DNA of 64,000 nucleotides. Source: Candidatus Peregrinibacteria bacterium (GTDB taxonomy: Bacteria; Patescibacteriota; Gracilibacteria; UBA1369; UBA12463). Positions 12,478-29,671 of the stretch are shown in pieces; position 1 is the first letter of the stretch; each line of letters starts with the position of its first letter. The position numbers and the translations under genes were made by a program. Below the pieces are notes generated by a model. That model was not told where the DNA came from. It made no database searches and saw nothing but the letters and a program-made list of their open reading frames with translations. The DNA is taken from contig JAPLYO010000016.1 of assembly GCA_026395555.1 (NCBI GenBank), positions 1 to 64,000 on the forward strand. Direction: 5' to 3'.

Positions 12478-12936
12478 ATGACAACCAGAAAACAGCAAAT
12501 AGAAAATATCGTGGAAGGAATGAGAGCCATAAAGCAAAAAATGGTCGTCTGTCATGTTAAAAAATCCTCATCCAGGAAGGAAAAGAATACCCCAATTACT
12601 CCATCTCAATGGGCGGTAATGACAATCGTCATGGAGAAAAAAGGGCTCGGCATAAAAGAAATAGCAGAAAAATTAGAAATGACGAGTAGTGCGGCAACTC
12701 AGCTCGTAGATGGACTGGTAGAAAATGGCTATTTGAAGAGAAAAAACAACACCACGGATCGTCGAGCTATTCTCCTCGAAATATCACCAAAACACGCAAA
12801 GAAAATGAATGAAATAAAAGAAAAAGCGATTGAACGGTTTACTACTCTCTTTGGCGCCCTGAACGACAAAGAGCTCGCAACCTATATCAAATTACAAAAG
12901 AAGATTATCAATACTCCCCTATCCCGCAATGAGTAA
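12478..12936 (+). CDS. MarR-family transcriptional regulator
   Basis: This 152-residue winged-helix repressor has the recognition-helix region GIKEIAEKLEMTSSAATQLV and the wing NGYLKRKNNTTDRRAILLEI with the conserved DRR motif. Flanking helices would form the dimer interface. It precedes two ABC exporter subunits, and its stop overlaps the first subunit's start by 8 bp. The palindrome at its own promoter fits autoregulation relieved by a small ligand, the usual arrangement for efflux control in this family. The ligand is unknown. Confidence 0.9.
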   Translation: MTTRKQQIENIVEGMRAIKQKMVVCHVKKSSSRKEKNTPITPSQWAVMTIVMEKKGLGIKEIAEKLEMTSSAATQLVDGLVENGYLKRKNNTTDRRAILLEISPKHAKKMNEIKEKAIERFTTLFGALNDKELATYIKLQKKIINTPLSRNE

Positions 12937-14542
12937 ACCTCTTTTCAATCTACAAAAAGCTAAAAAACCTGGAATATTCGGTTTACTACGACCGTATATT
13001 AAACCTATAGGCGTGCTCGTAATGCTCGCTGTCGCCAGCAGTAGCGCCGGCTTGATACTACCAAAAATCATTTCCCATGCGATCGACTCGTACATACACA
13101 AAACATACGATGCATCATTACTTTTATGGGAATTTGGAGGAACAATTGCCGCCATATTTGTGATCACCTACGTACAAAATATCGTGCAAACATACACGTC
13201 GGAAATGTTCGTAGCGCAGGCCATAGCCTCTCTCGCCTCTTCTGTCATTATCATTATCGGTGCCGCCATATTACTTTTCAGTATCAACTGGAAGCTCGCC
13301 ATCGCAGTTATTACCATTATACCCATTCTAGGCACCCTCTTCTTTTTCGTATTCAGTAAGGTAAAAGTCCTCATGAAAAGAAGTCGTGAGGTCGTAGACT
13401 GGCTCAACAAAGTCATAAACGAAAGTATCTTAGGATCGGCCCTGATACGAGTATTGAACTCGCAGCAGTCGGAATATGAAAAATTCGTTACTGCCAATAC
13501 CGATGCGAAAGATAACGGGATACGCATTCTCAAAACGTTCGCAAGCATGATACCAATCATCACCTTCGTAGCAAATATTGCCATGCTTGTTATTCTCGTT
13601 ATGGGCGGACACTTCATCATCGGAGGAACGATGACGCTTGGCGATTTCACGGCATTTAATAGTTATGTTGCATTACTCATATTCCCTATTCTCCTCATAG
13701 GAATGATGAGCAATGTCATGGCACAGGCAACAGCCTCATATCAACGCATCGCAGAAGTGCTCCATACCAAAGAAGAAGAAAAAGTTGGCACCCTAAAAAA
13801 ATCATTGAAGGGCAACGTCGAGCTCAAGGACATTACGCTTACCTTTGGAGAAAAACCGGCACTAAAAAATGTATCATTAAAGATATCAGGGAAGAGCAAA
13901 ACGGCGATTATCGGTCCGACGGCAGCCGGAAAAACACAGCTCCTCTACCTCCTCATAGGGCTTACTCATGCCACGGCGGGGACGGTGAAATATGACGGTG
14001 AGGACATCGGTTCATACGATAAAGAAACACTGCATAGTCAGGTCGGATTCGTTTTTCAGGATAGTATTATTTTTAATTTGACCTTACGTGAAAACATAGC
14101 CTTCAGCGACACAGTGAAGGATATCGATTTGCAAAAAGCCATCGAGACAGCTGAGCTTGAAGACTTCATTGGGACACTTCCGAATGGGCTCGACACGATC
14201 GTATCGGAACGTGGATCAAGCCTTTCTGGAGGCCAAAAACAGCGCATCATGCTTGCACGAGCGCTAGCACTCAATCCAAAAATTCTACTACTCGATGACT
14301 TCACCGCGCGAGTGGATAATAAAACAGAACGCAAAATTCTAGACAATATTGAGAAAAATTATCCGGACATTACGCTGATCTCGGTAACGCAAAAAATAAC
14401 ATCGATCGAAAAATACGACCAAATAATTCTCTTGATGGAGGGCGAGATTATCGCATCTGGAAAGCACGATGAGCTCATCCACACCTGCCCGGAATATGCA
14501 CAGATATACAACTCTCAAAAAAGCACCAGCCACTATGAATAA
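12929..14542 (+). CDS. ABC exporter half-transporter, degenerate-site subunit, with an internal gap in the membrane domain
   Basis: This 537-residue fused membrane/ATPase subunit has Walker A GPTAAGKT (329-336) and signature SLSGGQKQR (431-439). Two catalytic positions are altered: the Walker B Glu is Asp457 (LLLDDFTARVD), and the switch His is Gln488 (SVTQKI). These changes are typical of the degenerate subunit in heterodimeric exporters such as TM287/288, LmrCD and BmrCD. In the membrane domain, TYTSEM runs straight into FVAQAIASL at residues 93/94 (13207/13208). The roughly 40 residues that normally lie here (end of TM2, first coupling helix, start of TM3) are absent. This is either an assembly deletion or a real loss. 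Confidence 0.85.
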   Translation: MSKPLFNLQKAKKPGIFGLLRPYIKPIGVLVMLAVASSSAGLILPKIISHAIDSYIHKTYDASLLLWEFGGTIAAIFVITYVQNIVQTYTSEMFVAQAIASLASSVIIIIGAAILLFSINWKLAIAVITIIPILGTLFFFVFSKVKVLMKRSREVVDWLNKVINESILGSALIRVLNSQQSEYEKFVTANTDAKDNGIRILKTFASMIPIITFVANIAMLVILVMGGHFIIGGTMTLGDFTAFNSYVALLIFPILLIGMMSNVMAQATASYQRIAEVLHTKEEEKVGTLKKSLKGNVELKDITLTFGEKPALKNVSLKISGKSKTAIIGPTAAGKTQLLYLLIGLTHATAGTVKYDGEDIGSYDKETLHSQVGFVFQDSIIFNLTLRENIAFSDTVKDIDLQKAIETAELEDFIGTLPNGLDTIVSERGSSLSGGQKQRIMLARALALNPKILLLDDFTARVDNKTERKILDNIEKNYPDITLISVTQKITSIEKYDQIILLMEGEIIASGKHDELIHTCPEYAQIYNSQKSTSHYE

Positions 14543-16382
14543 TTATGCGTTGAATAAATCGGCAAAGGGAAAGGAGAAAATAAAAGTCTGGGCAACTCTC
14601 AGGAAACTTTTACCTCTTATGAAGGATGAAAAAAAGGATATATTCCTTGCGGGGTTTACCATGCTCATTAACTCAGGATTAACGCTTGTAGCTCCTGTTC
14701 TCATTGGTCATACCGTTGATACCTACATTCAGGAAAAAGACTTCCATGGTGTCTTGGTATACGCCTCCATCTTGCTCGGAATGTACATCCTCGCCATGAT
14801 TGCAAACTACTTCCAAACCCTCCTCATGGGCACGGTAGGCCAGCACGTATTATTCAATTTACGAAACAGCATTTTTGACAAAATCCAGTCTCTTCCGGTA
14901 GCATTTTTCAATCAGAATAAAACGGGTGATCTGATCTCTCGCATCAATAACGATACAGACAAAATTAATGAGTTCTTTTCTCGAAGTTTAATTCAGTTCG
15001 TCTCAAGTATCATCATGATTGTCGGTGCAGGAATCTTCATCATAAGTATTAATTGGGAACTCGGAATCGCCGCATTAATTCCAGCTTTTACCCTCCTCAT
15101 CTTCACTCGAATGATCTCGGCATGGATGAAGCGTACGAACGCAAAAAACCTCAAAAGCATCGGTGGAATGAGTGGAGAAATTGCGGAGAGCCTGGATCAT
15201 TTCAAGGTAATTGTCGCGTTCAATCGTCGCGATTATTTCCGCAAGAAATTCAGCATCGTTAATGAAGCGAATTATAGCAATGCGGTCAGCGCAGGTATCG
15301 CCAACAACACACTCACGCCAATGTACGGACTTGCTTCCGGTGCAGCGCAACTCATCGTTGTCGCCTATGGTATCTACTTAATATCGATCGGAAGTTTCAC
15401 GCTAGGGCTCTTGATTAGCTTCCTAACATACATCAGCAGACTCTACGATCCTCTCAGACAAATGGCTATGGTATGGTCGAACTTCCAGATGGCACTCGCT
15501 GCATGGGACCGTATTCATGATATTTTGATGCTAAAATCCAATCTCGTTGTCATGCCGTCTTCAGCACCGATTTTCAAGTTTTCCACAAAAACATCAAAAC
15601 TATTCGAGTTCAGCCCGACGCTTCTAGAGTTCAAAAACGTTCATTTCGGATATCCTGACGGGAAGAAAGTATTGCACGATATCAACTTCCGACTTGCTCG
15701 TGGAAAAACATACGCTCTCGTCGGACCGACGGGAGGAGGAAAAACCACGACAGCATCACTGATGGCACGTCTCTACGATCCCACGGAAGGAAAAGTACTC
15801 CTCAACGGAAAAGATATGAGAAGCTACGAAGCGAGTGAGCGCGCAAAGAGTATTGGATTTATTTTACAGGAACCATTCCTCTTTACCGGCATGGTGCGCG
15901 ATAATATTCTCTATGGAAACAAATCATACGATCGATATACCAACAAAGAATTAGAAAAGGCTATCGAAGATGCGGGATTGGGTGGACTTCTCAAGCGATT
16001 CAACGAAGGTCTTGAGACAAAAATATCAGCAAACGGCAATACGCTCAGTCTCGGCCAAAAACAGCTCATCGCCTTCATGCGAGCCGTACTGCGAGATCCT
16101 GAATTATTAATCCTCGACGAAGCAACGGCGAACATCGACACGATTACCGAGCAGCTTCTCGAAGATATCCTAAAAAAATTACCGGCAAAAACAACAAAGG
16201 TCATCATCGCTCATCGACTCAACACTATCGAAAATGCCGATGAGATATTCTTCATCAATGACGGAGAGGTCACGCTTGCCATAAAAGCCCTACCAAACAT
16301 CTCACCCTGCGTATCGGCATCACTACACATAACTCGATCATTTCTGACAACAGTGACCGCGAGCGATAACTTCACGACATAA
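14535..16382 (+). CDS. ABC exporter half-transporter, catalytic subunit (altered C-terminus)
   Basis: This subunit of about 615 residues pairs with the preceding one. The membrane domain is complete, including the coupling-helix region LPVAFFNQNKTGDLISRINN missing from its partner. Walker A GPTGGGKTT, Walker B LLILDEATANID with the catalytic Glu, and the switch His in IAHRLNTIE are intact. The signature is LSLGQKQ instead of LSGGQ, as expected if it completes the partner's degenerate site. After FFINDGEVTL the last 34 or so residues (KALPNISPCVSASL onward) do not look like an ABC tail and are antisense to the minus-strand gene at 16211-16642. The start at 14535 overlaps the upstream stop by 8 bp. 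Confidence 0.85.
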   Translation: MNNYALNKSAKGKEKIKVWATLRKLLPLMKDEKKDIFLAGFTMLINSGLTLVAPVLIGHTVDTYIQEKDFHGVLVYASILLGMYILAMIANYFQTLLMGTVGQHVLFNLRNSIFDKIQSLPVAFFNQNKTGDLISRINNDTDKINEFFSRSLIQFVSSIIMIVGAGIFIISINWELGIAALIPAFTLLIFTRMISAWMKRTNAKNLKSIGGMSGEIAESLDHFKVIVAFNRRDYFRKKFSIVNEANYSNAVSAGIANNTLTPMYGLASGAAQLIVVAYGIYLISIGSFTLGLLISFLTYISRLYDPLRQMAMVWSNFQMALAAWDRIHDILMLKSNLVVMPSSAPIFKFSTKTSKLFEFSPTLLEFKNVHFGYPDGKKVLHDINFRLARGKTYALVGPTGGGKTTTASLMARLYDPTEGKVLLNGKDMRSYEASERAKSIGFILQEPFLFTGMVRDNILYGNKSYDRYTNKELEKAIEDAGLGGLLKRFNEGLETKISANGNTLSLGQKQLIAFMRAVLRDPELLILDEATANIDTITEQLLEDILKKLPAKTTKVIIAHRLNTIENADEIFFINDGEVTLAIKALPNISPCVSASLHITRSFLTTVTASDNFTT

Positions 16383-16733: not shown

Positions 16734-19700
16734 TTACTTACCTGCTCGATACGATGGAACTTTCTTCAGAAGGGCAGACGGAAGCTCGGTAGCTCTAGCC
16801 GACTTGAAGTACTTCTTACGATACGTCGCATAAGGAAGAGGCCGCTTCTTGCCATTCTCGATGATGTAATAGAGGCCACGCCCCTCGAGCTTCAATATCA
16901 ACCCATTCACGAGATTAACCGTTGAGGCACCCAAAACGATACCATTCTGCGGTGGTGGAGCGGGGACAACGGGGGTTAGTACCGGCGCGACCACAGGAAC
17001 AACAGGAGCTACAACGGGTGGTGGAGGCGAGGCGACAGGAACTGAGACGGGAGTCGGAGCAGGTGCGGGAGCTGGAACAGGAGGCGGTGGAGGAGGCGCG
17101 GCAATAGTCCACGTAGCAGCAAGCGCGCTCGTGAGTGGAGTATAGTTTCCGAATGCATCACTGGCGATAACCTTGATGATATGTGAGCCAACTGCAAGCG
17201 AGCTCAGGGAGATAGGAGTGCCGGCAACTATTTCGGAACTGAACACGTCGGAGTCTTTTGCAAATTTATAGGCGGCTACATCACTGCCGACAACCGTAAT
17301 GGTAGCCGAAGTCGAGGTCGTCCCGTCGGCAGGCGTTCCGCTCAAGCTAAACGCCGGAGGAGTAGCGTCTACCGTCCACGAGTAGCTCGTCGCCGTCTCG
17401 ATAGGTTGAAAATTTCCAACATCGTCCTTCGCGATGAATTCAATTTTATGGGATCCATTACTCAGCGCGCTCGTCCCACTCAATACAAGTGGCGCACTCA
17501 CCGGAGTCTCAGGAGAAAAATCCTCCGTTCCTATTATCGCATCTAGTCGGATTTTCGCAACGATGGGGCTCGTAAACACCGTAAATGTATCGGTTTTCAC
17601 CGGTACACCGGTATTCCCCAGCGAGTCCTGGAATTGAGCAAAGACGTTCCTATCACCATCGGTAGAGCCACAGGCATTACTACCTGACTGAACATCGAAG
17701 GTCGTGATCGTGTCAGCAAAATCTATCGGATCAGAAAAATGAACTCCATCGCAAGAAAGTTGCACCTTCACCCCCGTCACGCCCACGCCGGCATCACTCA
17801 CCGTAAGGGCTAGAGATGGCGCCTTGGTCTTCATCGGACTCGATGTCGTCACGGCGATCGTCCCAACAGGCGCCGTAGCATCCACACTCCACGTCACTAC
17901 GGTTGGATGCAGCTGAACATTCCCGTGAATATCTTTTCCATACACCAAAAGTGTGTGCGCTCCATCTGACAGATCAGAGAGTGAGAGAGGCTTACTAACA
18001 TCAGAAAAATCCGTCAATACCGCACTATCAATCTTATAAGCATAACTAACCACTCCATCGCCCGCCACGGTTATCGTAGCTACTTTATCCTTCGTAAAAA
18101 CGCCAGATGCAGGCGTTCCGCTCAAGGTAGCAACAGAAGGTATAACATCATTTGAGGTAACAACCTCACTGTCAGCGATACCATTATTCACCATAAATCG
18201 TATACGAACATCAGACTGAATAGGTTTTGTTAATGCCTCCAAATCCGCATGATTCAAATCAACATAGAAGGCAAAAGAAGAAGGCGCAGGAGAAACTACC
18301 GACGAGGTCATATTCACACTCACACTCAGTGCGGCGGAAGCATCTCCATTGGTCGGAGCCACGAATGTCACTCCACCATCAACACTATACTCAAATTTCT
18401 TGAGGGTAACGGGTAAACCACCAATGGCATCCGTCAGGGTAAACGCAACTGCCAACTTGCCATTACCACTCACTCCGTCATCCTGCAGCATCGTACTGGT
18501 TATACCCGGAACGGTCGTTAAACCCTTCAGGGCATTATAGGCATTTATACGCTTACCGGTAGCAACCTTCCCTGACAGATGAGAATCAACATCCCCTGTC
18601 GCCAAAATATCATCGCGAACCTGCGCCATGGTTAAGTTCGCATCATATCCCCAAAGAAGCGCTGCCAATCCGGCTACATGCGGGCTGGCCATGGAGGTGC
18701 CACTAAAATACGCATAAGAACCTCCTGCAAAAAGCGAAGGAGGAACCGCTCCAAGAACGTGGACACCGGGCGCCCCAACATCTACGTTCGCCGCTCCATA
18801 ATTAGAAAAATCGGCGATATTATCCGTGGAGTCCGTCGCAGAAACCGCAATAATATTGTTCAAGGCGTAATTGGAGGGATAATTCGGAGTAGCAAGATCG
18901 TCGTTATTAGAGCCATTATTTCCGGCCGCCGCTACGAATAATCCGGGAAAATCATGAATCGCGTCGTACTCTGCCTGAGAAAAATTCAAACCTCCAAAAC
19001 TTGCATTCACTATCTTGGCACCATTTTGTTTGGCAAAGTTCAGTCCCTTGATCCAATCACTCGAACTCAAAAATCCATCTTTATCAGCAACCTTTATCGG
19101 CATCAGGGAAACACTCATGGCTACGCCGGTAACTCCGAGGTTATCATCCCCTTTTGCTCCGATGATACTAGCGACGTGCGTGCCGTGACCATGATCGTCA
19201 GTTGGATCGTTATCGTTCGCAGGGTCGCTGTCAGGACAACCGGTCTCAATAACGACACCATTATCATCCTTGCATCCACCGGCCTCACTGGAACCATTCC
19301 ACAAATTAGGAACAAGATCTGGATGCGTCAAATCCGCACCGGTATCTAAAACTCCCACTATCACGTTCGATCCCTTGGATATACTCCAAGCTTCTGGGGC
19401 ATCGATATCGACATCAGAAGCACTATGCAAGCTCCACTGATCCGCAAAAAAAGAATCATTAGGAATATACTGAGATGGCGTGGTGTCAAAAACTTTTCTC
19501 AAGTAATTCGGCACCACATACTCAACTCTCGAATCATCCTGAAGTCGATCGATTAACTGCTCGGTAGACTCGTTGGATTTCGAGGTAAGCAGCGTTACGT
19601 TTTGAGGAGTGATCGTATCTTCTTTCTTCAATCCCTCAGCAAAAACAAAAGAGCTCAGCGAAGCCTTACCACTCACCTGATCAATATCAATTTTCTTCTC

Positions 19701-19868
19701 TTTGAATTTAACCAAAACTTCTCCATCAACATGTGGCTCATCAATAATTACACTTGGAGATGCTACGACGCTTTGCAAATCCTGAGCCGCGACAGGTGCC
19801 ACCATCAATCCGATCAGAAACAAACCAGTCAGAGCGCGTTGTGCCGAAAACCTGTTCCTTATTTTCAT
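16734..19868 (-). CDS. Secreted subtilisin-like serine protease with Ig-like repeats
   Basis: This protein of about 1044 residues is an S8 protease. A signal peptide (RALTGLFLIGLMVAPVAA) is followed by an I9-like propeptide (EVLVKFKEKKIDI ... SRVEYVVPNYL). The catalytic domain has Asp175 in GVLDTGADLTHPDL, His228 in DDHGHGTHVASI, an oxyanion Asn in AAAGNNGSN and Ser392 in SGTSMASPHVAGLAALLW. About 500 residues of Ig-like beta repeats follow (several with SGTPA.G and WTVDATPP). A Pro/Val/Ala linker then leads to a short C-terminal domain (RGLYYIIENGKKRPLPYATY) that may serve surface attachment. ATG 19868 was chosen because it begins the signal peptide. Likely a large extracellular protease for nutrient acquisition or host-cell interaction. 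Confidence 0.92.
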   Translation of the reverse strand: MKIRNRFSAQRALTGLFLIGLMVAPVAAQDLQSVVASPSVIIDEPHVDGEVLVKFKEKKIDIDQVSGKASLSSFVFAEGLKKEDTITPQNVTLLTSKSNESTEQLIDRLQDDSRVEYVVPNYLRKVFDTTPSQYIPNDSFFADQWSLHSASDVDIDAPEAWSISKGSNVIVGVLDTGADLTHPDLVPNLWNGSSEAGGCKDDNGVVIETGCPDSDPANDNDPTDDHGHGTHVASIIGAKGDDNLGVTGVAMSVSLMPIKVADKDGFLSSSDWIKGLNFAKQNGAKIVNASFGGLNFSQAEYDAIHDFPGLFVAAAGNNGSNNDDLATPNYPSNYALNNIIAVSATDSTDNIADFSNYGAANVDVGAPGVHVLGAVPPSLFAGGSYAYFSGTSMASPHVAGLAALLWGYDANLTMAQVRDDILATGDVDSHLSGKVATGKRINAYNALKGLTTVPGITSTMLQDDGVSGNGKLAVAFTLTDAIGGLPVTLKKFEYSVDGGVTFVAPTNGDASAALSVSVNMTSSVVSPAPSSFAFYVDLNHADLEALTKPIQSDVRIRFMVNNGIADSEVVTSNDVIPSVATLSGTPASGVFTKDKVATITVAGDGVVSYAYKIDSAVLTDFSDVSKPLSLSDLSDGAHTLLVYGKDIHGNVQLHPTVVTWSVDATAPVGTIAVTTSSPMKTKAPSLALTVSDAGVGVTGVKVQLSCDGVHFSDPIDFADTITTFDVQSGSNACGSTDGDRNVFAQFQDSLGNTGVPVKTDTFTVFTSPIVAKIRLDAIIGTEDFSPETPVSAPLVLSGTSALSNGSHKIEFIAKDDVGNFQPIETATSYSWTVDATPPAFSLSGTPADGTTSTSATITVVGSDVAAYKFAKDSDVFSSEIVAGTPISLSSLAVGSHIIKVIASDAFGNYTPLTSALAATWTIAAPPPPPPVPAPAPAPTPVSVPVASPPPPVVAPVVPVVAPVLTPVVPAPPPQNGIVLGASTVNLVNGLILKLEGRGLYYIIENGKKRPLPYATYRKKYFKSARATELPSALLKKVPSYRAGK

Positions 19869-19897
19869 GGGGAAAATTAGAAAAACATTAGGGCATG

Positions 19898-19926
19898 ATA
19901 ATCCCATGATGCTGCCAAAAAGTCAA
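19898..19926 (-). promoter_or_regulatory. Promoter of the subtilase gene
   Basis: On the minus strand, TTGACT (19926-19921) and GATTAT (19903-19898) are 17 bp apart. Initiation near 19891 leaves a leader of about 23 nt. Confidence 0.6.
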
Positions 19927-19971: not shown

Positions 19972-20001
19972 TTGACTTATGCAAGCAATAGGTCGTAGAA
20001 T
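19972..20001 (+). promoter_or_regulatory. Promoter of the aminotransferase-like gene
   Basis: TTGACT (19972-19977) and TAGAAT (19996-20001) have an 18-bp spacer. Initiation near 20008 gives a leader of about 36 nt, AT-rich and without a clear Shine-Dalgarno sequence. Confidence 0.55.
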
Positions 20002-20043: not shown

Positions 20044-21786
20044 ATGGCAGAAGTATCACAAAAAAATGGACTCATGATAGAAAATGCAGAGATAAACGCG
20101 CCGACACAGCCAAATACGCGACTATTTGCTAAAAATGGCATAAGTCAAAGCGAACGAGGGTGGATATCCAAGGAAACAATTGCCCCAGAATTCAGAGACC
20201 GTCTAGTGCATCCAAACAGGAGAGAAAATGATGATGCGGTTTACTGTTACAAAAGCATAAATGGAGAATGGATACCGGAATTACGCACTGAAAATACTAA
20301 CGCAGCTATGCACCAACGAATTGAAGATGATCTCAACAACTCAGCTAATCAGGTAGCAGGCGTTCTTGCACGAGGTACGGATGGGAATGAACTTATGCGG
20401 AGATTTCGACCAAAACCAGCTCGAGGCCGTTCAGCATTCTCAACAATTGTCACGATGCATAGTGATATGAATGATCATTTTGGAAGAGCTCATCTTGGCA
20501 CTACAGATTCATTGCCTATACCAAATTCAACAAATTATACTCGTATCTCAGTTTTTAATGCTCTCAACGATAGAACCACTACTAGTGAAATTGTTCTCGA
20601 AACACTCAAGCCGGGAACTCGTGAAGATGATGAAAAATTTTCTATAGACTCAGTTATATTAAACCAACAAGAAATAGATTTTGAGGGTATCTCATCAGAT
20701 AATCAAACATTGGCATTCTATGATCCAATTCGGAAGAAATGGACCGTTCAAACAATTCCATTTGGAATAGTTGGTATGCATCCATACGATGCCAGAAATC
20801 ATTACATTAATGGATTTTTTACGGGAATTATCGCGTATGAAATTAATGGCAATGTATATGCATTTCGACTTGATGAACACATAAAGCGTGCTGTCAGGGA
20901 TGCAAAAAAAACGCAATTTCCATACGTAAGTGAAGACATGCTCTATGCCATGGCAAAAACGCAACTAACCGCTGACAAGCGATGGGTTCCAAATGCCTGT
21001 CTCAATATTGACGATCCCGACACCGGCAAGAAGGGTATCGGCAATCGCCATTACTTTAGAATTTTCGCCGCGCCAACTCACCTCGGTCCAAAAATCGCGA
21101 AACCTGGAAAATCACGGAACAAGATGATGGGAGCCATCGGTACCGCCGCAGGCCCATACAAGGACAAGGATATGCTCAATATCGTATTACGAGGTTCACG
21201 TCCCGTGAATCCCGTATTTGCTGCAAATAAATACTCAGGAAGTTATCAGGGTCCAATGGATGACCTTCAGCCATATTTGATGAATGGATACGATGAAGGC
21301 CTCTTCAGCGTCGACACAAATCAAACCGTAGAGGGTCGCCGACTCCAAGAAGGTTCAGGTTGTAATTATATCATAGTGAAGTGTGGAAAAGACGGACAAC
21401 AGCCAACAATGCTCATTCCGGATCCGAAGAATCATAGCGATCTTTTGCCTGGGATCACCTGCAAGTCCGTAGCAGAACTTGCCGAGTCATATGGATACAA
21501 CGTGCAATGGAAAGATGTTCAAGTTGAAGATATGGAAAATGCCGATGAGATTCTCGCAACCGGAACAGCCATGAGTGTTCGCGGTGTCAATAAAGTCGAT
21601 TGGGACACAGGAGAAAAAGACGAAAATGGTAATTCAAAAATGATAATGCAAACAATATTTGATCGTGGTAATCAAAAGACAATGGGAACAGTAGGTCAGC
21701 GTCTTTCGGACGACATGAAAAGAATTATGAGAGGTCAGCATCCAGATCCTAAATTTAATGCCTGGATGCAGAAAATAGAAAACTAG
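20044..21786 (+). CDS. Extended fold-type IV PLP aminotransferase-like protein (BCAT-like)
   Basis: The C-terminal 340 or so residues of this 580-residue protein match branched-chain aminotransferases. NGFFTGIIAYEINGNVYAFR corresponds to EGIRAY...FRLDEH, and LDEHIKRAVRDAKKTQFPY follows. Lys396 (AANKYSGSY) is the predicted PLP lysine. Glu436 lies in the hallmark QEGSGCNYIIVK. LLPGITCKSVAELAESYGY and ADEILATGTAMSVRGVNKV complete the PLP phosphate-binding region. IlvE enzymes have about 300 residues, whereas this protein has an extra N-terminal region of about 240 residues without a recognised domain, plus insertions near 350 and 525. The substrate is unknown. The gene stands alone behind its own promoter and shares a CTAG stop overlap with the next gene. 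Lys and EGSG retention suggests activity. Confidence 0.72.
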   Translation: MAEVSQKNGLMIENAEINAPTQPNTRLFAKNGISQSERGWISKETIAPEFRDRLVHPNRRENDDAVYCYKSINGEWIPELRTENTNAAMHQRIEDDLNNSANQVAGVLARGTDGNELMRRFRPKPARGRSAFSTIVTMHSDMNDHFGRAHLGTTDSLPIPNSTNYTRISVFNALNDRTTTSEIVLETLKPGTREDDEKFSIDSVILNQQEIDFEGISSDNQTLAFYDPIRKKWTVQTIPFGIVGMHPYDARNHYINGFFTGIIAYEINGNVYAFRLDEHIKRAVRDAKKTQFPYVSEDMLYAMAKTQLTADKRWVPNACLNIDDPDTGKKGIGNRHYFRIFAAPTHLGPKIAKPGKSRNKMMGAIGTAAGPYKDKDMLNIVLRGSRPVNPVFAANKYSGSYQGPMDDLQPYLMNGYDEGLFSVDTNQTVEGRRLQEGSGCNYIIVKCGKDGQQPTMLIPDPKNHSDLLPGITCKSVAELAESYGYNVQWKDVQVEDMENADEILATGTAMSVRGVNKVDWDTGEKDENGNSKMIMQTIFDRGNQKTMGTVGQRLSDDMKRIMRGQHPDPKFNAWMQKIEN

Positions 21787-22595
21787 AAGAGAGTGATAGT
21801 CGAGACTAAAATGATAAAGGTCCCAATAGTATAAAACGTGAGGCGTCGGTCACGATAATGTTGTAGCCAGAAGTATCGAAAGGTAATGTGTGCGAGAAGG
21901 AAAAGTATAGCGTAGAAATATATATGAGCCACGAGCTCAAGTCCACTCATAGGTGATGCGCTATTAGAGGCGACACCATAGTCATCCGTATATCCTCCGT
22001 CCGAGTCGGAAATAGCTGCCGCGCGACCCTGCTTAGCAAGTGACATTCCTCGAACAGGACTTGCAAATGGTCGTCCAAACATCTGAACCACAATCGTGGT
22101 CTGGGCTCCTTGATATATACCATGAGACGTGCCGACACCAATTTCTGTAAATCGCTTACTCAAGAGGTTATCTCGATGTGCCGTACTCTGCATCCAACTC
22201 TCCACTACGCGCTCGGCCGAGTCATACTGCATCGCTAAATTTTCACCGGCATAGAGAAAATAATACTTCTGCGTATTCATAAAGTTCCATGGAGTTTTTC
22301 CATCGGGAGTCGTATGGGAAAAATACTGATTCCTCAACATATCATCTGCCTTTTCTTGCGCAGCCGCCTGTAATTTGAAAGAAACGGTTAAAGGGTTCAC
22401 CTTATCAATCTCCCGTGCATGATTCGTCAACTCAACAATTTTTTCACTGGAAATAACACTCGTAAATACATCGCTCAGCTGAAAGGTAGAGGCCAAAAAA
22501 CCTCCCGCAGGAAGCATCGAAACAATGAGCGTTAATTTAAGGGTGAGAAGTCCGAGCGCAACAGCGGTATATTTTTTAGAAAAAGCCTTCATCAT
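21783..22595 (-). CDS. CAP/SCP-domain secreted membrane protein
   Basis: This 270-residue protein belongs to the CAP (PR-1/SCP) superfamily. A hydrophobic N-terminus (LGLLTLKLTLIVSMLPAGG) acts as signal or anchor. The CAP core includes LQAAAQEKADDML, YFSHTTPDGKTPWNF with the conserved His, AGENLAM and VVESWMQSTAHRDNLL with the second His. Two hydrophobic segments end the protein (HIYFYAILFLLAHITFRYF and TIGTFIILVSTITLF). Bacterial CAP proteins are extracellular and of largely unknown activity. Its stop overlaps the convergent aminotransferase-like stop (CTAG). Confidence 0.88.
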   Translation of the reverse strand: MMKAFSKKYTAVALGLLTLKLTLIVSMLPAGGFLASTFQLSDVFTSVISSEKIVELTNHAREIDKVNPLTVSFKLQAAAQEKADDMLRNQYFSHTTPDGKTPWNFMNTQKYYFLYAGENLAMQYDSAERVVESWMQSTAHRDNLLSKRFTEIGVGTSHGIYQGAQTTIVVQMFGRPFASPVRGMSLAKQGRAAAISDSDGGYTDDYGVASNSASPMSGLELVAHIYFYAILFLLAHITFRYFWLQHYRDRRLTFYTIGTFIILVSTITLF

Positions 22596-23740: not shown

Positions 23741-24220
23741 ATGTTTCACCTGACGAGAAAAATTGATTACGGACTCGTTCTACTGCTCGAATTGGCAGAG
23801 GGGAGCGAAGACGCCATCAAAGCTGAGGCAAAACCCCTCTCGCTTCGCACGCTCGCAAAAAAACGATATCTCTCATTCCTTTTCTTGCAGAAAGTAGCGA
23901 TGGATCTACGAAAACATGGCTTAATAGAAGCAAAAAGAGGAAAAGTAGGCGGATATTACCTCACCAAAAAACCTACGGAAATCACGCTCAAAGAGATATT
24001 CGAGGCACTAGAAGGACCCATCTCCGTCATGCACTGCTTGGGAATGACCGTCAAAGAAAATCTCGTTCACGAGGTTGGCTGTCACTCCCGCAAAGCACTT
24101 AATATGCTCAATGATGATATGAAACAGTCACTTAATAGAATTACGCTCGCAGATTTTCTCAACAACCAGTCCCCTACTCCCATTCTAACCCCTATACGAC
24201 ATGTCACAGCTCGTCATTAA
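23741..24220 (+). CDS. Rrf2-family Fe-S-responsive regulator of the Suf operon
   Basis: This protein of about 159 residues has the Rrf2 winged helix (FHLTRKIDYGLVLLLELAEG, then SFLFLQKVAMDLRKHGLI and the wing KRGKVGGYYLTKKP). Cys99, Cys114 and His115 (MHCLG ... VGCHS) lie where IscR/SufR-type proteins bind a Fe-S cluster, although only two cysteines are present instead of the usual three. An in-frame upstream start was rejected because residues before MFHLTRKI do not match the family and would cover the promoter. sufC begins 20 bp before its stop. It probably represses the operon when Fe-S supply is adequate. Confidence 0.85.
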   Translation: MFHLTRKIDYGLVLLLELAEGSEDAIKAEAKPLSLRTLAKKRYLSFLFLQKVAMDLRKHGLIEAKRGKVGGYYLTKKPTEITLKEIFEALEGPISVMHCLGMTVKENLVHEVGCHSRKALNMLNDDMKQSLNRITLADFLNNQSPTPILTPIRHVTARH

Positions 24221-24959
24221 AGATCTTCACGCCAACGTGGAAGACAAAGAAATCTTAAAAGGAATTTCGCTCACGATCAATGCCGGAGAAATCCACACGA
24301 TCATGGGACCAAACGGTTCCGGAAAATCAACACTCTGTCACGTACTGATGGGGCACCCAAAATACACGATAACTAGCGGTATCATCACACTTGATGGAGA
24401 GGATATTACCGAATTAAAGCCGGATAAACGTGCGCAACTTGGAATATTCTTGAGCTTCCAATACCCACAAGAAGTTCCGGGAGTAAAGTACCCAAACTTT
24501 TTACGACAGGCAAAAAATGCGCTTCTCGCAGCCAAGAAACTACCGCCAGTCAAGATTCCTGAGTTCGTAAAAGTGGTAAAAGAAAAAATGAAACTCCTGA
24601 AATTTCCGGAAAACTTCATGGAACGTGCGGTGAACGAAGGCTTCTCCGGTGGAGAAAAGAAACGCGCAGAAATTCTGCAAATGGCCGTGTTTGAGCCAAA
24701 ATTCGCCATTCTCGATGAAACGGATTCCGGTCTCGATGTCGATGCATTGAAGATCGTCGCCAAAGGCGCTATGGCCATCGCAAAAGAAACACAGTGCGGA
24801 GTATTGCTCATTACGCACTACCAAAGAATTTTAAATTATATCGCTCCAAATTTCGTCCACATCATGGTCGATGGAAAAATCGCCAAGACAGGCGGAGGCG
24901 AATTAGTAGAAGAAGTAGAGACAAAAGGATACGAGGCTTTCTTAACCACACAAGAATAA
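24201..24959 (+). CDS. sufC: Fe-S assembly ATPase SufC
   Basis: This 252-residue ABC-type ATPase drives the SufBCD scaffold. Walker A is GPNGSGKST, the signature region is GFSGGEKKRAEILQM, and Walker B is FAILDETDSGLD with the catalytic Glu. The switch His is in LLITHYQRIL. The GFSGGE signature and the ETDSGLD stretch are characteristic of SufC. It overlaps the regulator gene by 20 bp, and sufB starts on the next base after its stop, so the proteins are almost certainly co-translated. Confidence 0.97.
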   Translation: MSQLVIKDLHANVEDKEILKGISLTINAGEIHTIMGPNGSGKSTLCHVLMGHPKYTITSGIITLDGEDITELKPDKRAQLGIFLSFQYPQEVPGVKYPNFLRQAKNALLAAKKLPPVKIPEFVKVVKEKMKLLKFPENFMERAVNEGFSGGEKKRAEILQMAVFEPKFAILDETDSGLDVDALKIVAKGAMAIAKETQCGVLLITHYQRILNYIAPNFVHIMVDGKIAKTGGGELVEEVETKGYEAFLTTQE

Positions 24960-26378
24960 ATGGCCACCAAACAACAATCACAAATCACAGAAGAACTTAC
25001 CGATTACAAGTATGGATTTCATGATTCTGAAAAAGATTATGAATATAAATCCGGAAAAGGCTTAACGGAAGAAACAGTGCGCATGATTTCCGCCTACAAA
25101 AAAGAACCACAGTGGATGCTCGATTTTCGGCTTAAGGCCTACAAAATCTATCGAGAAAAGCCAATGCCCACGTGGGGCAGTCCATTCTTGCAAGAAATTG
25201 ATTTCGAAAATATTCATTACTACATCAAGCCGACCGATCGCAAATCTCGCAGCTGGGAAGATGTTCCAGCGGACATCAAAAATACGTTTGATCGATTGGG
25301 AATTCCAGAGGCAGAAAAGAAATTTCTCGCAGGCGTAGGCGCACAGTACGAATCAGAGACGGTGTACCACTCATTACAAAAACATCTTGAAGAGAAAGGA
25401 GTCATCTTCGTCGATACTGATACGGCCGTACAAAAGTATCCCGACATCGTACGGAAGTATTTTGCAACCGTTGTACCAATTCGAGATAATAAGTTAGCGG
25501 CACTCAACTCCGCCGTATGGAGCGGTGGATCATTTGTCTATATTCCAAAAGGGGTACATGTGGAACTTCCACTACAAGCGTACTTCCGTATCAATGCGGA
25601 AAATGCAGGACAGTTCGAGAGAACATTAATTATCGCAGAAGAAGGCTCATCGGTTCACTACACGGAGGGCTGCACAGCGCCAATCTATGCCACAGACTCA
25701 CTGCACTCAGCCGTTGTAGAAATCATCGTGCACAAAGACGCGCGCGTCCAATACACTACCGTTCAGAACTGGTCGAAGAACGTATTTAATCTCGTGACCA
25801 AACGTGCCGTCGCCGAAGAAAATGCAACGATGATGTGGCTCGACTGCAACATCGGATCAAAATTAACCATGAAGTATCCAAGTATTTATTTAAAAGGAAA
25901 AGGAGCACGAGGAGAAATTCTCTCACTCGCTCTTGCCAACAAAGACCAGCATCAGGATGCCGGTGGAAAAATTTATCATCTCGCACCAGATACATCATCC
26001 GTGATCAATGCAAAATCCGTAAGTCTTCATGGTGGACGTACCTCATATCGAGGCATGCTTAATGTCGCCCCAGGCGCAGAGAGAAGCCGTTCGCGCGTCA
26101 CATGTGACGCGCTCCTCCTCGACGAGCAGTCCTCTACCGACACCTACCCAACGATGCAGATCGACGAGAACAACGTCGCCATCGCCCACGAAGCAACGGT
26201 TACGAAAATCTCTCAGGAGCAGTTATTTTATCTCATGTCCCGCGGTCTTTCCGAGCAAGAGGCGTCAAATATGATTGTAAATGGATTTCTCGCACCGCTT
26301 ATCAAGGAATTTCCCATGGAGTACGCCTTAGAACTTAACCGCCTCATCGCCATGGAGATGGAGGGAAGTGTTGGGTGA
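24960..26378 (+). CDS. sufB: Fe-S scaffold protein SufB
   Basis: This 472-residue scaffold subunit builds Fe-S clusters within SufBC2D. Conserved blocks include [53 protein letters not shown] (Cys implicated in sulfur transfer), [11 protein letters not shown] and the C-terminal [20 protein letters not shown] with the following [12 protein letters not shown]. Length is normal for the family. It starts directly at the sufC stop. A stable hairpin lies just after its stop, before sufD. Confidence 0.97.
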
Positions 26379-26397
26379 TTTTTGCAAAGCAAAAATT
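26379..26397 (+). other. Hairpin between sufB and sufD
   Basis: ATTTTTGC and GCAAAAAT form a perfect 8-bp stem with an AAA loop immediately after the sufB stop. Only a short T stretch follows, so it may be a weak attenuator or an mRNA-stability element that lowers expression of the downstream suf genes. Confidence 0.5.
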
Positions 26398-26430
26398 TGA
26401 TCCCGCTCCCGTTTTTCTCACTAAATTATT

Positions 26431-27069
26431 ATGACTCAACTACTCACCATACCGAAATCAGCCAAGCAAATCATCCTCCAAGATGTGCCCGGATCACATA
26501 CGATTACACTGGAAGAAAGCGCAGAACTTCAATATGTACTCTCCTTCAAAAATACTAATCCTGAGGAAAAAAGCGTTATTACGTTCAAACTCAACGGCGA
26601 CCATGCACGTGTACATATCATCGGACTTTTTGCAGGGAAAAATTCAGACACGGTGAAATTCGAGACGCAAACGATCCACAACGCCAACAATACATATGGT
26701 CATGCGCAGATCAAAACCATGCTCAAAGACAAGGCAACCTCTGATTATTTTGGGCTCATTCGCATTGAAAAAAATACCCACGAATCCGATGGCCATCTTT
26801 CTCACGACACGATGCTTCTCTCGAAACAAGCAAAGTCAAAGTCTGTTCCAGCGCTTGAGATAGAGGCAAACGACGTCAAGGCAGGACACAGCGCATCCGT
26901 AGGTCAGGTCGATGAAGAGACTATTTTTTATCTCTGCTCACGTGGGCTTAGCGAAGACCAAGCACGAGAATTAATGATAGAAGGATTCTTCGAAAGTCTT
27001 CTCGGACAAATAAACGATGACAAGATAGCCACACAAGTGAGAGAATCATTACAGAGCACTCTACTATAA
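26431..27069 (+). CDS. sufD: Reduced SufD-like Fe-S assembly protein
   Basis: This 212-residue protein keeps only the C-terminal beta-helix and helical tail of SufD. The tail motif VGQVDEETIFYLCSRGLSED followed by ARELMIEGF matches SufB/SufD, and AGHSASVGQ holds the conserved His. Typical SufD has about 400 residues, so the N-terminal helical domain and half the beta-helix are missing. Its place between sufB and sufS supports the SufD assignment rather than a SufB fragment. Confidence 0.85.
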   Translation: MTQLLTIPKSAKQIILQDVPGSHTITLEESAELQYVLSFKNTNPEEKSVITFKLNGDHARVHIIGLFAGKNSDTVKFETQTIHNANNTYGHAQIKTMLKDKATSDYFGLIRIEKNTHESDGHLSHDTMLLSKQAKSKSVPALEIEANDVKAGHSASVGQVDEETIFYLCSRGLSEDQARELMIEGFFESLLGQINDDKIATQVRESLQSTLL

Positions 27070-27096
27070 AAGATATTTTCGTTTAACCCACATCAT

Positions 27097-27420
27097 ATGT
27101 TCATGCCAACCGTCTCGATAGAGAATCTCAAATCAGGTGAAAAAACAAAGTTCGAAATCAATGGAATAAAATTGATGATTGCGAACATCAATGATGCGGC
27201 TTATGCGGTACAGCGATACTGCTCACACGCGGAGTCCGACCTCACCGAGGGAAATCTTGAGGGATGCGTAATCGAATGTGCGCTTCATGGCGCCATGTTT
27301 GATGTTCGAGATGGAAAAGTTCTAAGCCTTCCCGCCACACAGCCTCTCAAAACATATCCGACAAAAATTGAAAACGGGATGATACTCGTTGATATTCCAG
27401 AAGTAGCTGAATCGGCATAA
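27097..27420 (+). CDS. Rieske-type [2Fe-2S] ferredoxin
   Basis: This 107-residue electron-transfer protein has the Rieske cluster ligands Cys42-x-His44 (RYCSHAESDL) and Cys61-x2-His64 (ECALHGAMFDV). The rest of the fold fits the NirD/biphenyl-dioxygenase ferredoxin type (SLPATQPLKTYPTKIENGMI). No membrane segment is present. Rieske ferredoxins embedded in suf operons are known and may supply electrons or act as an early cluster acceptor. sufS starts 10 bp later. A second ATG at 27103 is possible. Confidence 0.92.
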   Translation: MFMPTVSIENLKSGEKTKFEINGIKLMIANINDAAYAVQRYCSHAESDLTEGNLEGCVIECALHGAMFDVRDGKVLSLPATQPLKTYPTKIENGMILVDIPEVAESA

Positions 27421-27430
27421 TACATTCAAA

Positions 27431-28684
27431 ATGATTGATCCACATCTCATCAAGAAAGACTTCCCCATCCTCTCGCGGATGATCGAAAACAAGCCGCTTG
27501 TATACTTGGATAGCGCATCTACATCACAAAAACCACAGTCTGTCATTGATGCGATTACGCGATATTACTCAAACAGTAATGCCAATATCCATCGTGCCAT
27601 ATACACCATCGCGCAGGAAGCAGATGACGCCTACGAAGCGACCCGCGAGTCGGTAAGGGCATTTATCAATGCGTCCTCGACAGAAGAAATTATATTCACA
27701 CGCAATACGACAGAAGGAATTAATCTTGTAGCCTACACATGGGCGGAACAAAATATTCACGAAGGAGATATTGTCATAGTAAGTGCACTCGAACATCACT
27801 CAAACCTTATCCCATGGCAGCAAGTAGCCATCAAGAAGAATGCGAGACTTGCGGTAATTCCCCTCTCTCGTGACCCTGAGACTCCATACCTCCTCGACAT
27901 GGAGTGGTTCAAAAAATATCTCATAGAGAATAGCACCTCGATCAAATTAATCGCCATCACGCATGCCAGTAACGTCACAGGAACGATTAATCCTATCAAG
28001 GAAATAGCATCACTCGTACATGCACACAGCTCCGCGAAAATTCTCATCGATGGCGCACAGTCCACCGCACATCTTCCAATAGATGTCCAAGATTTGGATT
28101 GTGATTTCTTCGCATTCTCTAGCCATAAAATGCTGGGACCAACGGGCGTGGGCGTCCTCTATGCCAAAAAACAATTACTGGAAGCGATGCCTCCATTTCT
28201 CTTCGGTGGCGATATGATTCGCGAGGTACACCAGCGCGATGCGACATGGAACGATCTCCCGTGGAAGTTCGAGGCTGGCACCCAAAATATCGCCGATGTA
28301 ATCGCCTTTAAGGAAGCCATCACCTACCTCACCAATCTAGGAATGGAAAACGTTCGGCAACACGACCAGAAACTCATCGCCTATGCACGTGCAAAATTAG
28401 AGAGTATCAAAAACCTCAAACTCCATATTCCAAAAAATAACATGGACATGACCGGTGTAATTTCTTTCGCCATGAATGGAATACATCCCCATGATATCGC
28501 CGAAATATTCAACAGTGAAAATGTCTGCATTCGTGGCGGAAACCACTGTGCCAAGCCACTTATGGAGAGCATCTCTGTTCCAGCAACCGCACGTATCAGC
28601 TTCTCGGTTTACAATACCGAAGAAGACATCGACATCGCGATCGAGGCCATTATCAAGGCGAAAAAAATATTCAACATCTCATAA
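27431..28684 (+). CDS. sufS: Cysteine desulfurase SufS
   Basis: This 417-residue PLP enzyme converts cysteine to alanine and a protein-bound persulfide for Fe-S assembly. It shows the PLP Lys in FSSHKMLGPTGVGVL, the substrate region TRNTTEGINLVAY and SALEHHSNLIPWQ, and the active-site Cys in RGGNHCAKPLM. The short loop around that Cys fits group II (SufS) desulfurases. sufU follows 25 bp downstream, its expected persulfide acceptor. Confidence 0.96.
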   Translation: MIDPHLIKKDFPILSRMIENKPLVYLDSASTSQKPQSVIDAITRYYSNSNANIHRAIYTIAQEADDAYEATRESVRAFINASSTEEIIFTRNTTEGINLVAYTWAEQNIHEGDIVIVSALEHHSNLIPWQQVAIKKNARLAVIPLSRDPETPYLLDMEWFKKYLIENSTSIKLIAITHASNVTGTINPIKEIASLVHAHSSAKILIDGAQSTAHLPIDVQDLDCDFFAFSSHKMLGPTGVGVLYAKKQLLEAMPPFLFGGDMIREVHQRDATWNDLPWKFEAGTQNIADVIAFKEAITYLTNLGMENVRQHDQKLIAYARAKLESIKNLKLHIPKNNMDMTGVISFAMNGIHPHDIAEIFNSENVCIRGGNHCAKPLMESISVPATARISFSVYNTEEDIDIAIEAIIKAKKIFNIS

Positions 28685-28709
28685 TACAGCAACAACTCAC
28701 CGATACATC

Positions 28710-29087
28710 ATGGATCTCTACGCCGAAAATATTCTCGACCACTTCCAAAATCCGCGCAATCACGGACGTCTCGCTGCGCCATCAATCACGGTCGACGATG
28801 CCAATCCCCTCTGCGGTGACAAACTCATTCTCGATCTTATGATAGAGAATTCTCACATCAAAGAAATCGGTTTTGACGGCTCAGGATGCGCCATATCACA
28901 GGCTGCCATGTCTATCCTTACCGAGGAAATTCTTCATAAATCTCTCGCAGATGCAGAAAATTTCTCCAAAGATGAACTCTACAAACTTCTCGGCGTCGCG
29001 ATCTCCCCCGCCCGCGTCAAATGTGCCCTCCTCGGATACACTCTTCTCAAAAAAGCTATTATTCTCCTTAAACATCAGGAATCATGA
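28710..29087 (+). CDS. sufU: Sulfur-transfer protein SufU
   Basis: This 125-residue IscU-fold protein accepts sulfur from SufS. The Zn/active-site ligands Cys35 and Asp37 (NPLCGDKLIL), Cys60 (GSGCAISQA) and Cys105 (ARVKCALLGY) are all present, and the spacing between the second and third cysteines fits SufU better than IscU. ATG 28710 was chosen because MDLYAENILDHFQNPRNHG is the conserved start. The stop overlaps the sufT start (ATGA). Confidence 0.95.
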   Translation: MDLYAENILDHFQNPRNHGRLAAPSITVDDANPLCGDKLILDLMIENSHIKEIGFDGSGCAISQAAMSILTEEILHKSLADAENFSKDELYKLLGVAISPARVKCALLGYTLLKKAIILLKHQES

Positions 29088-29671
29088 GCACCAGTAAAAA
29101 AATCTCCGCAAAGAAAACTCCAACGAAGAAACCAACGATAAAAAAATCAGTTGTAAAAAAACCAACCACGAAAAAACTCATCGTGAGGAAAATGGTTATC
29201 AAAAATCTTCCGGTAAAAAAAATTACTCCAAGTAAATCTTCTTCCAAAAAGCCATCGCCATCTGTTTTCGGCCCGGACCTGCAGAAGCGCATAGACTACG
29301 CCAAAGGCAACGGACCAAAAATGGCAAAATCATTCGACGAACTACGAAAAGAAAATCCGATGATGGAAAAAATCGGCGCGGCGCTCAATGAAATTCTCGA
29401 CCCAGAAATAGGCATCGGTATTGTCGACCTCGGTCTCATCTATGGCGCCAACCTCGAGAAGCTTCCCGATGGTACCTACGACGCCGTGGTAATAATGACA
29501 CTCACCTCCATGGGCTGCCCCGTCGGTCCCATGATCATGGAGCAGGTCCAGACCGTTCTTCCGCAACTCGTCCCAGAGATCACCTCCGCCTCCGTCCAAA
29601 TCGTCTGGGATCCGCCCTGGGGCCCCGACAAGGTTAAGCCGGAGATTAGAGATATGCTGTTTGGATTTTAA
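29084..29671 (+). CDS. sufT: MIP18-family (SufT-like) protein with Lys-rich N-terminal tail
   Basis: The C-terminal 105 or so residues form a MIP18/PaaD-type domain involved in Fe-S maturation. They carry the DPE motif (NEILDPEIGIGIVDLGLIY) and the Cys in LTSMGCPVGPMIMEQ, and end with QIVWDPPWGPDKV. Before it lies a 65-residue tail rich in Lys, Thr, Val and Pro with repeats such as KKPTIKKSVVKKPTTKK, reminiscent of histone-H1-like tails and unusual for this family. It overlaps sufU by 4 bp and closes the Suf gene run. Confidence 0.88.
   Translation: MSTSKKISAKKTPTKKPTIKKSVVKKPTTKKLIVRKMVIKNLPVKKITPSKSSSKKPSPSVFGPDLQKRIDYAKGNGPKMAKSFDELRKENPMMEKIGAALNEILDPEIGIGIVDLGLIYGANLEKLPDGTYDAVVIMTLTSMGCPVGPMIMEQVQTVLPQLVPEITSASVQIVWDPPWGPDKVKPEIRDMLFGF

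Follow-up and report, generated by a model that had tools for sequence, protein, structure and literature searches.

A BCAT-like fold-type IV aminotransferase with an N-terminal extension and an altered substrate pocket in Candidatus Peregrinibacteria

The window, a stretch of 64,000 nucleotides from a Candidatus Peregrinibacteria bacterium (contig JAPLYO010000016.1), encodes a long aminotransferase of the BCAT type on its forward strand (Table 1). The genome measures 1.2 Mb in 32 contigs, is 90% complete, and holds a single copy of the gene. Minus-strand genes flank it on both sides, a subtilase gene (16734-19907) and a gene for a CAP protein (21783-22595), the latter sharing 4 bases with the stop end of the aminotransferase gene. 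Since both neighbours lie on the minus strand, the aminotransferase gene is most likely transcribed alone. An earlier note on this DNA had described the gene as standing alone behind its own promoter, with no amino-acid biosynthesis neighbours. Our analysis agrees with the isolation of the gene and with the lack of such neighbours at the locus. The proposed promoter is present as a consensus match, but the frequency of sigma-70-like matches in the upstream region is not above chance (8 found, 5.6 expected). No gene neighbourhood is conserved across the carriers of the nearest relatives (clade A, below), and the neighbours differ from genome to genome. The flanking subtilase, probably secreted, has 1057 residues with a prodomain of the fervidolysin type; its Ig-like match is weak. 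Elsewhere in the window, a MarR regulator gene precedes two ABC exporter genes that overlap each other and encode 537 and 637 residues (12478-16382). At 24201-29671, SUF iron-sulfur cluster genes follow an Rrf2 regulator in this CPR genome; the cluster contains SufC and SufB, and by eye also SufD-like, Rieske-type ferredoxin, SufS, SufU and SufT-like genes.

Table 1. Features of the extended aminotransferase locus, with related loci in other genomes
Feature	Position or loci	Strand	Remarks
Sigma-70-like promoter match, TTGACT-18-TAGAAT	19972..20001	+	10 of 12; divergent intergenic region; consensus match only
Extended BCAT-like fold-type IV aminotransferase CDS (clade A)	20044..21786	+	580 aa; ATG start; five full-length orthologues
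N-terminal extension, residues 1-204	20044..20655	+	Without a relative in Pfam, NCBIfam, PHROGs, the PDB or phages
BCAT-type core, residues 205-580	20656..21783	+	PRK13357 alignment, PDB type II BCAT alignment, tree (type II side)
Ile263 codon	20830..20832	+	Type I enzymes have Arg40 here and type II enzymes Lys, the basic residue ordering the alpha-carboxylate pocket (role as for the equivalent TaTT Arg43, PMC8320979)
Lys396 codon	21229..21231	+	Corresponds to the catalytic Lys159 in E. coli IlvE; invariant in six orthologues
Glu436 codon	21349..21351	+	Corresponds to Glu193, which binds the PLP ring nitrogen; invariant in six orthologues
Met510 codon	21571..21573	+	At Ala259 of the GTAA turn; Met in 6/6 clade-A proteins and in 0 others compared
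2-hydroxyacid dehydrogenase gene and clade-A gene of genome G045, locus L034	8061-9059 and 9149-10834	both -	
Clade B members	L007, L011, L016, L026, L043, L072, L074, L075, L078		
Clade C members	L022, L025, L058, L076, L077, L079, L083		448-519 aa; very divergent

The BCAT fold-type IV homology claimed in the earlier note is borne out by profile searches. Pfam Aminotran_4 matches residues 257-518 of the protein (E 8e-14) with 52.5 bits against a curated cut-off of 28.5, and the match spans model positions 1-223, placing the protein in the fold-type IV family over the full model. The NCBIfam model of type II BCATs, PRK13357, aligns with residues 205-578 (E 1.6e-22). A profile built from the six clade-A orthologues matches Mycobacterium type II BCATs in the PDB (E 7e-25), with alignments that start at profile positions 203-215. 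From these two alignment starts it follows that the core begins at about residue 205 and that the extension comprises about 200 residues. The extra region was thus correctly recognized, but its length had been put at about 240 residues. The description of the protein as nearly twice the normal length fits a comparison with type I BCATs (~305 aa) and less so one with type II (~360 aa). The residues and motifs named at that time (Lys396, EGSGCN with Glu436, LLPGIT and ATGTAMSV) are all found at their positions.

The protein falls short of every BCAT equivalog cut-off, scoring 79.8 bits against 307 for PRK13357, 65.7 against 245.6 for TIGR01122 and 63.1 against 250.1 for TIGR01123. An identity as aminodeoxychorismate lyase or D-amino acid aminotransferase was considered and rejected: these models reach 24.2 and 28.1 bits compared with 79.8 for BCAT, the YxR motif is kept, and the aminodeoxychorismate lyase-type proteins of the class branch elsewhere. 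Two PabB-PabC type fusions occur elsewhere in the class, at L080 (1249-3405, 719 aa) and L081 (2705-3991, at least 429 aa). Their front half is similar to anthranilate/aminodeoxychorismate synthase component I and their back half to aminodeoxychorismate lyase. AlphaFold2 models computed from a two-sequence alignment, the window protein with L031, have a mean pLDDT of 31.9 at full length and 35.6 for the core alone, values at which the models are unusable; an alignment of this depth is too shallow.

Full-length orthologues of 546-583 residues are present in five others among 99 related genomes. They are 30-68% identical to the window protein; L002 is the closest (68%), and L003, L004, L005 and L006 fall between 30 and 38%. 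L031 lies on the same contig as L002, which comes from a species of the window's genus. A class-wide profile search of 353 genomes, together with additional loci, uncovered further long aminotransferases, and those of the class, ranging from 448 to 688 residues, form three clades, A, B and C. In a tree of the core, all three group with the type II references (100/99), opposite the short IlvE proteins of the class (100/99). Clade A, which includes the window protein, is a single supported clade (100/100); L008, initially grouped with it, was placed in clade B by the core tree. The tree does not establish a single long ancestor of A, B and C (support 86/21). A short BCAT was not found by profile search in the four carriers that belong to the window's genus; genomes G045 and G061 have one in addition to the long form. 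We found no paper describing this protein.

The extension has the properties of a real protein segment. Among the six orthologues its residues R53, Y69, G74, P78-E79, R81, R92, R110, G147, R167 and P190-G191 are invariant, and in comparison with the nearest orthologue pN is 0.34 and pS 0.73, the synonymous sites being saturated. These invariant residues and a pN well below pS indicate that the extension is translated and constrained. They also speak against the possibility that the gene is not one protein but a BCAT to which misassembly or a missed start has joined a chance upstream ORF. Such a reading could draw on the lack of a known relative of the extension and on the absence of a visible Shine-Dalgarno sequence before the ATG at 20044. 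However, the same continuous, stop-free architecture is found in five other genomes, so that the orthologues already contradict it, and we regard it as very improbable.

The earlier note had stated that the N-terminal region matches no known domain, and searches of Pfam, NCBIfam, PHROGs, the PDB and phages returned no relative of the extension; Pfam is blank over residues 1-240. Viral contigs contain no relative of the extended aminotransferase, and plasmids carry only ordinary BCATs of about 25% identity, none of which covers the extension. In 380 genomes of the phylum, a profile of the extension found clade-A proteins and one marginal match (E 0.0016). The marginal match, in genome G402, covers 64 residues of a 1205-residue frame and was dismissed as chance because 380 genomes had been searched. 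A profile of the clade B1 extension behaved similarly, finding B1 proteins and one marginal match. The extension is best read as a lineage-specific accessory domain carried only by clade-A enzymes. The notion that it is an internal copy of the core is unsupported (profile comparison, P 0.14). Some 60 residues ahead of the core, a TxxHxxxxDxFG motif is weakly common to clades A, B and C; its profile score of 20.7 was reached in none of 200 column shuffles, whose maximum was 12.6. Sharing of the motif points to one ancestral extension for the three clades without proving it.

The active site was mapped position by position on E. coli IlvE, whose sequence was confirmed to be identical to 1i1k. 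In the order IlvE=window, the residues that are kept are Y31=Y254, R59=R282, Y95=Y337, R97=R339, Y129=Y372, K159=K396, Y164=Y401, E193=E436, L217=L468, I220=I471, T221=T472 and G256-A258=G507-A509. The comparison of Lys396 and the EGSG positions in homologues of the same length, which the earlier note had called for, found Lys396 and Glu436 conserved in the five orthologues. Across the six clade-A proteins Gly437 and Asn441 are likewise invariant, and the Ser of EGSG varies. Arg282 and Leu468 are present in 6/6 clade-A proteins, and Ile471 and Thr472 are kept with a few changes. Conservation of this kind bears on a further interpretation, that the protein binds PLP but serves a regulatory or structural role and has no transaminase activity, the extension being its working part. 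Purifying selection on the extension and its restriction to these proteins are compatible with such a role, but the catalytic set is kept down to 30% identity among the orthologues and the core diverges less than the extension, which makes this interpretation improbable.

The alpha-carboxylate pocket is changed. Of the two alpha-carboxylate sites in BCATs, one consists of the position-40 Arg together with the GTAA turn (PMC8320979). In the window protein the other site, Tyr337/Arg339, is kept, and in the first Arg40 is replaced by Ile263 and GTAA by GTAM, so that one of the two sites remains. Position 40 is basic in the references, being Arg in E. coli IlvE and in 21/21 of the short type I proteins that the class contributed to the comparison, and Lys in 4/4 type II enzymes. 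The basic residue is gone in 21 of the 22 long forms (6 of clade A, 9 of clade B and 6/7 of clade C), which are kin, and the counts are therefore not independent. It is replaced by Ile, Val or Pro in clade A, by Gly, Ser or Thr in clade B, and by Val, Ala or Cys in six clade C proteins. The seventh, L025, retains the position-40 Arg, but Arg97 is replaced by Ala and Tyr129 by Ile. As this protein has the extension as well as the Arg, the extension and the loss of Arg are not perfectly linked.

Comparison with characterized families places the window protein nearest to the type II BCATs (PRK13357/TIGR01123 ilvE_II; Mycobacterium IlvE, 3dtf and 3ht5; human BCAT1/2). Its core aligns with them from end to end, has the same PLP and catalytic residues, and lies on their side of the tree. 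It differs in its extra N-terminal residues, in missing the curated cut-offs, and in belonging to a genome without IlvC or IlvD. In clade A, moreover, Ile, Val or Pro replaces the Lys at the Arg40 position, Met replaces Ala259 and Thr replaces Glu37. E. coli IlvE and the other type I enzymes share the fold family and the catalytic residues, but they are short and have Arg40, and the type I proteins of the window's order group as a clade of their own (100/99). The proteins of clades B and C other than L025 resemble the window protein in their type II-side core, in an N-terminal extension (~105-240 residues) and in the position-40 loss. In contrast to clade A, they have a residue other than Met at Ala259 and keep Glu37, and beyond TxxHxxxxDxFG the extensions are not detectably similar. 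Thermobaculum terrenum TaTT (6GKR) is also a BCAT-derived fold-type IV enzyme with an altered pocket, and its specificity is expanded (PMC8320979). TaTT keeps Arg43 and has Met103 for Arg97; in the window protein this pattern is reversed, and the extension is present in addition. The R43S substitution in TaTT, equivalent to a change at position 40, sharply lowers BCAT-like activity (PMC8320979). From this effect and the position-40 loss, we infer by analogy that the long forms may have a changed specificity. Loss of the Arg40-position residue alone does not prove a substrate change, as the other alpha-carboxylate site, Tyr337/Arg339, is intact. The suggestion in the earlier note that the enzyme may act on an unusual amine or keto acid gains indirect support from the loss of Arg40/Lys in this pocket.

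The metabolic setting must also be considered. CPR bacteria, with genomes of about 1 Mb, have shed most of their amino-acid metabolism. IlvC and IlvD are absent from 6/6 clade-A genomes and from the whole family of the window genome, carriers up to 100% complete included; order-wide, IlvC is found in 20/89 genomes and IlvD in 15/89. The window genome has three fold-type I aminotransferase matches, a weak partial match of 21.7 bits as its closest approach to a glutamate dehydrogenase, and no visible 2-hydroxyacid dehydrogenase. In G045, the next gene downstream of the clade-A gene, in the same orientation, encodes a 2-hydroxyacid dehydrogenase (PF02826, E 2e-59), an arrangement not seen at the other carriers. 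In the related Peribacteria, amino acids were inferred to be taken from external protein (PMC4736985).

An ordinary BCAT could have a place in such a metabolism, transferring nitrogen from imported Leu, Ile and Val to 2-oxoglutarate in an auxotroph, for catabolism or interconversion, with the extension and pocket changes as tolerated drift. The full set of PLP and catalytic residues is retained, as is the Tyr337/Arg339 pair, the top matches are BCATs, the biosynthesis genes for branched-chain amino acids are absent, and the dehydrogenase of G045 could reduce the keto acid. Against this, the invariant Met510 and the nearly universal loss of the P-pocket basic residue among the long forms suggest selection on specificity, no real glutamate dehydrogenase or 2-hydroxyacid dehydrogenase is seen in the window genome, and the score is far under the curated BCAT cut-off (79.8 versus 307 bits). 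We consider the ordinary BCAT a tentative and rather unlikely explanation.

The explanation that we favour, by a little over even odds, is a PLP-dependent transaminase of fold-type IV, catalytically competent, that descended from a type II BCAT, changed its substrate preference and left branched-chain amino acid biosynthesis. Because these bacteria do not synthesize branched-chain amino acids, the enzyme has probably moved to another substrate; an auxotroph could, on the other hand, use an unmodified BCAT for catabolism too. Judged from the alignment, the PLP and catalytic residues (Lys396, Glu436, Arg282, Tyr401, Leu468-Ile471-Thr472 and Gly507-Thr508-Ala509) and the side-chain/gamma-carboxylate pocket (Tyr254, Tyr337, Arg339 and Tyr372) are kept, and the alpha-carboxylate pocket has exchanged its basic residue for Ile and Ala259 for Met. 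PLP would be bound as in BCATs, with Lys396 carrying the aldimine and transferring the proton. Glutamate/2-oxoglutarate would stay one partner, because the residues that hold the gamma-carboxylate are kept. The other partner would be an amino acid, a keto acid or an amine compatible with the remodelled pocket, and not a biosynthetic branched-chain keto acid. The extension most likely packs on the core as a lid, a dimer partner or a specificity element, and would have no activity of its own.

A bolder and doubtful proposal is that the extension is a new domain that helps to recognize the substrate and makes up for the missing P-pocket Arg/Lys. The long aminotransferases of these CPR bacteria would then be a new enzyme family. 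The change in the pocket residue provides a definite, testable prediction of specificity; for the domain formed by the extension, no relatives are known. The retention of a remodelled and expanded transaminase family in reduced CPR genomes suggests a specific need, one that is yet to be described.
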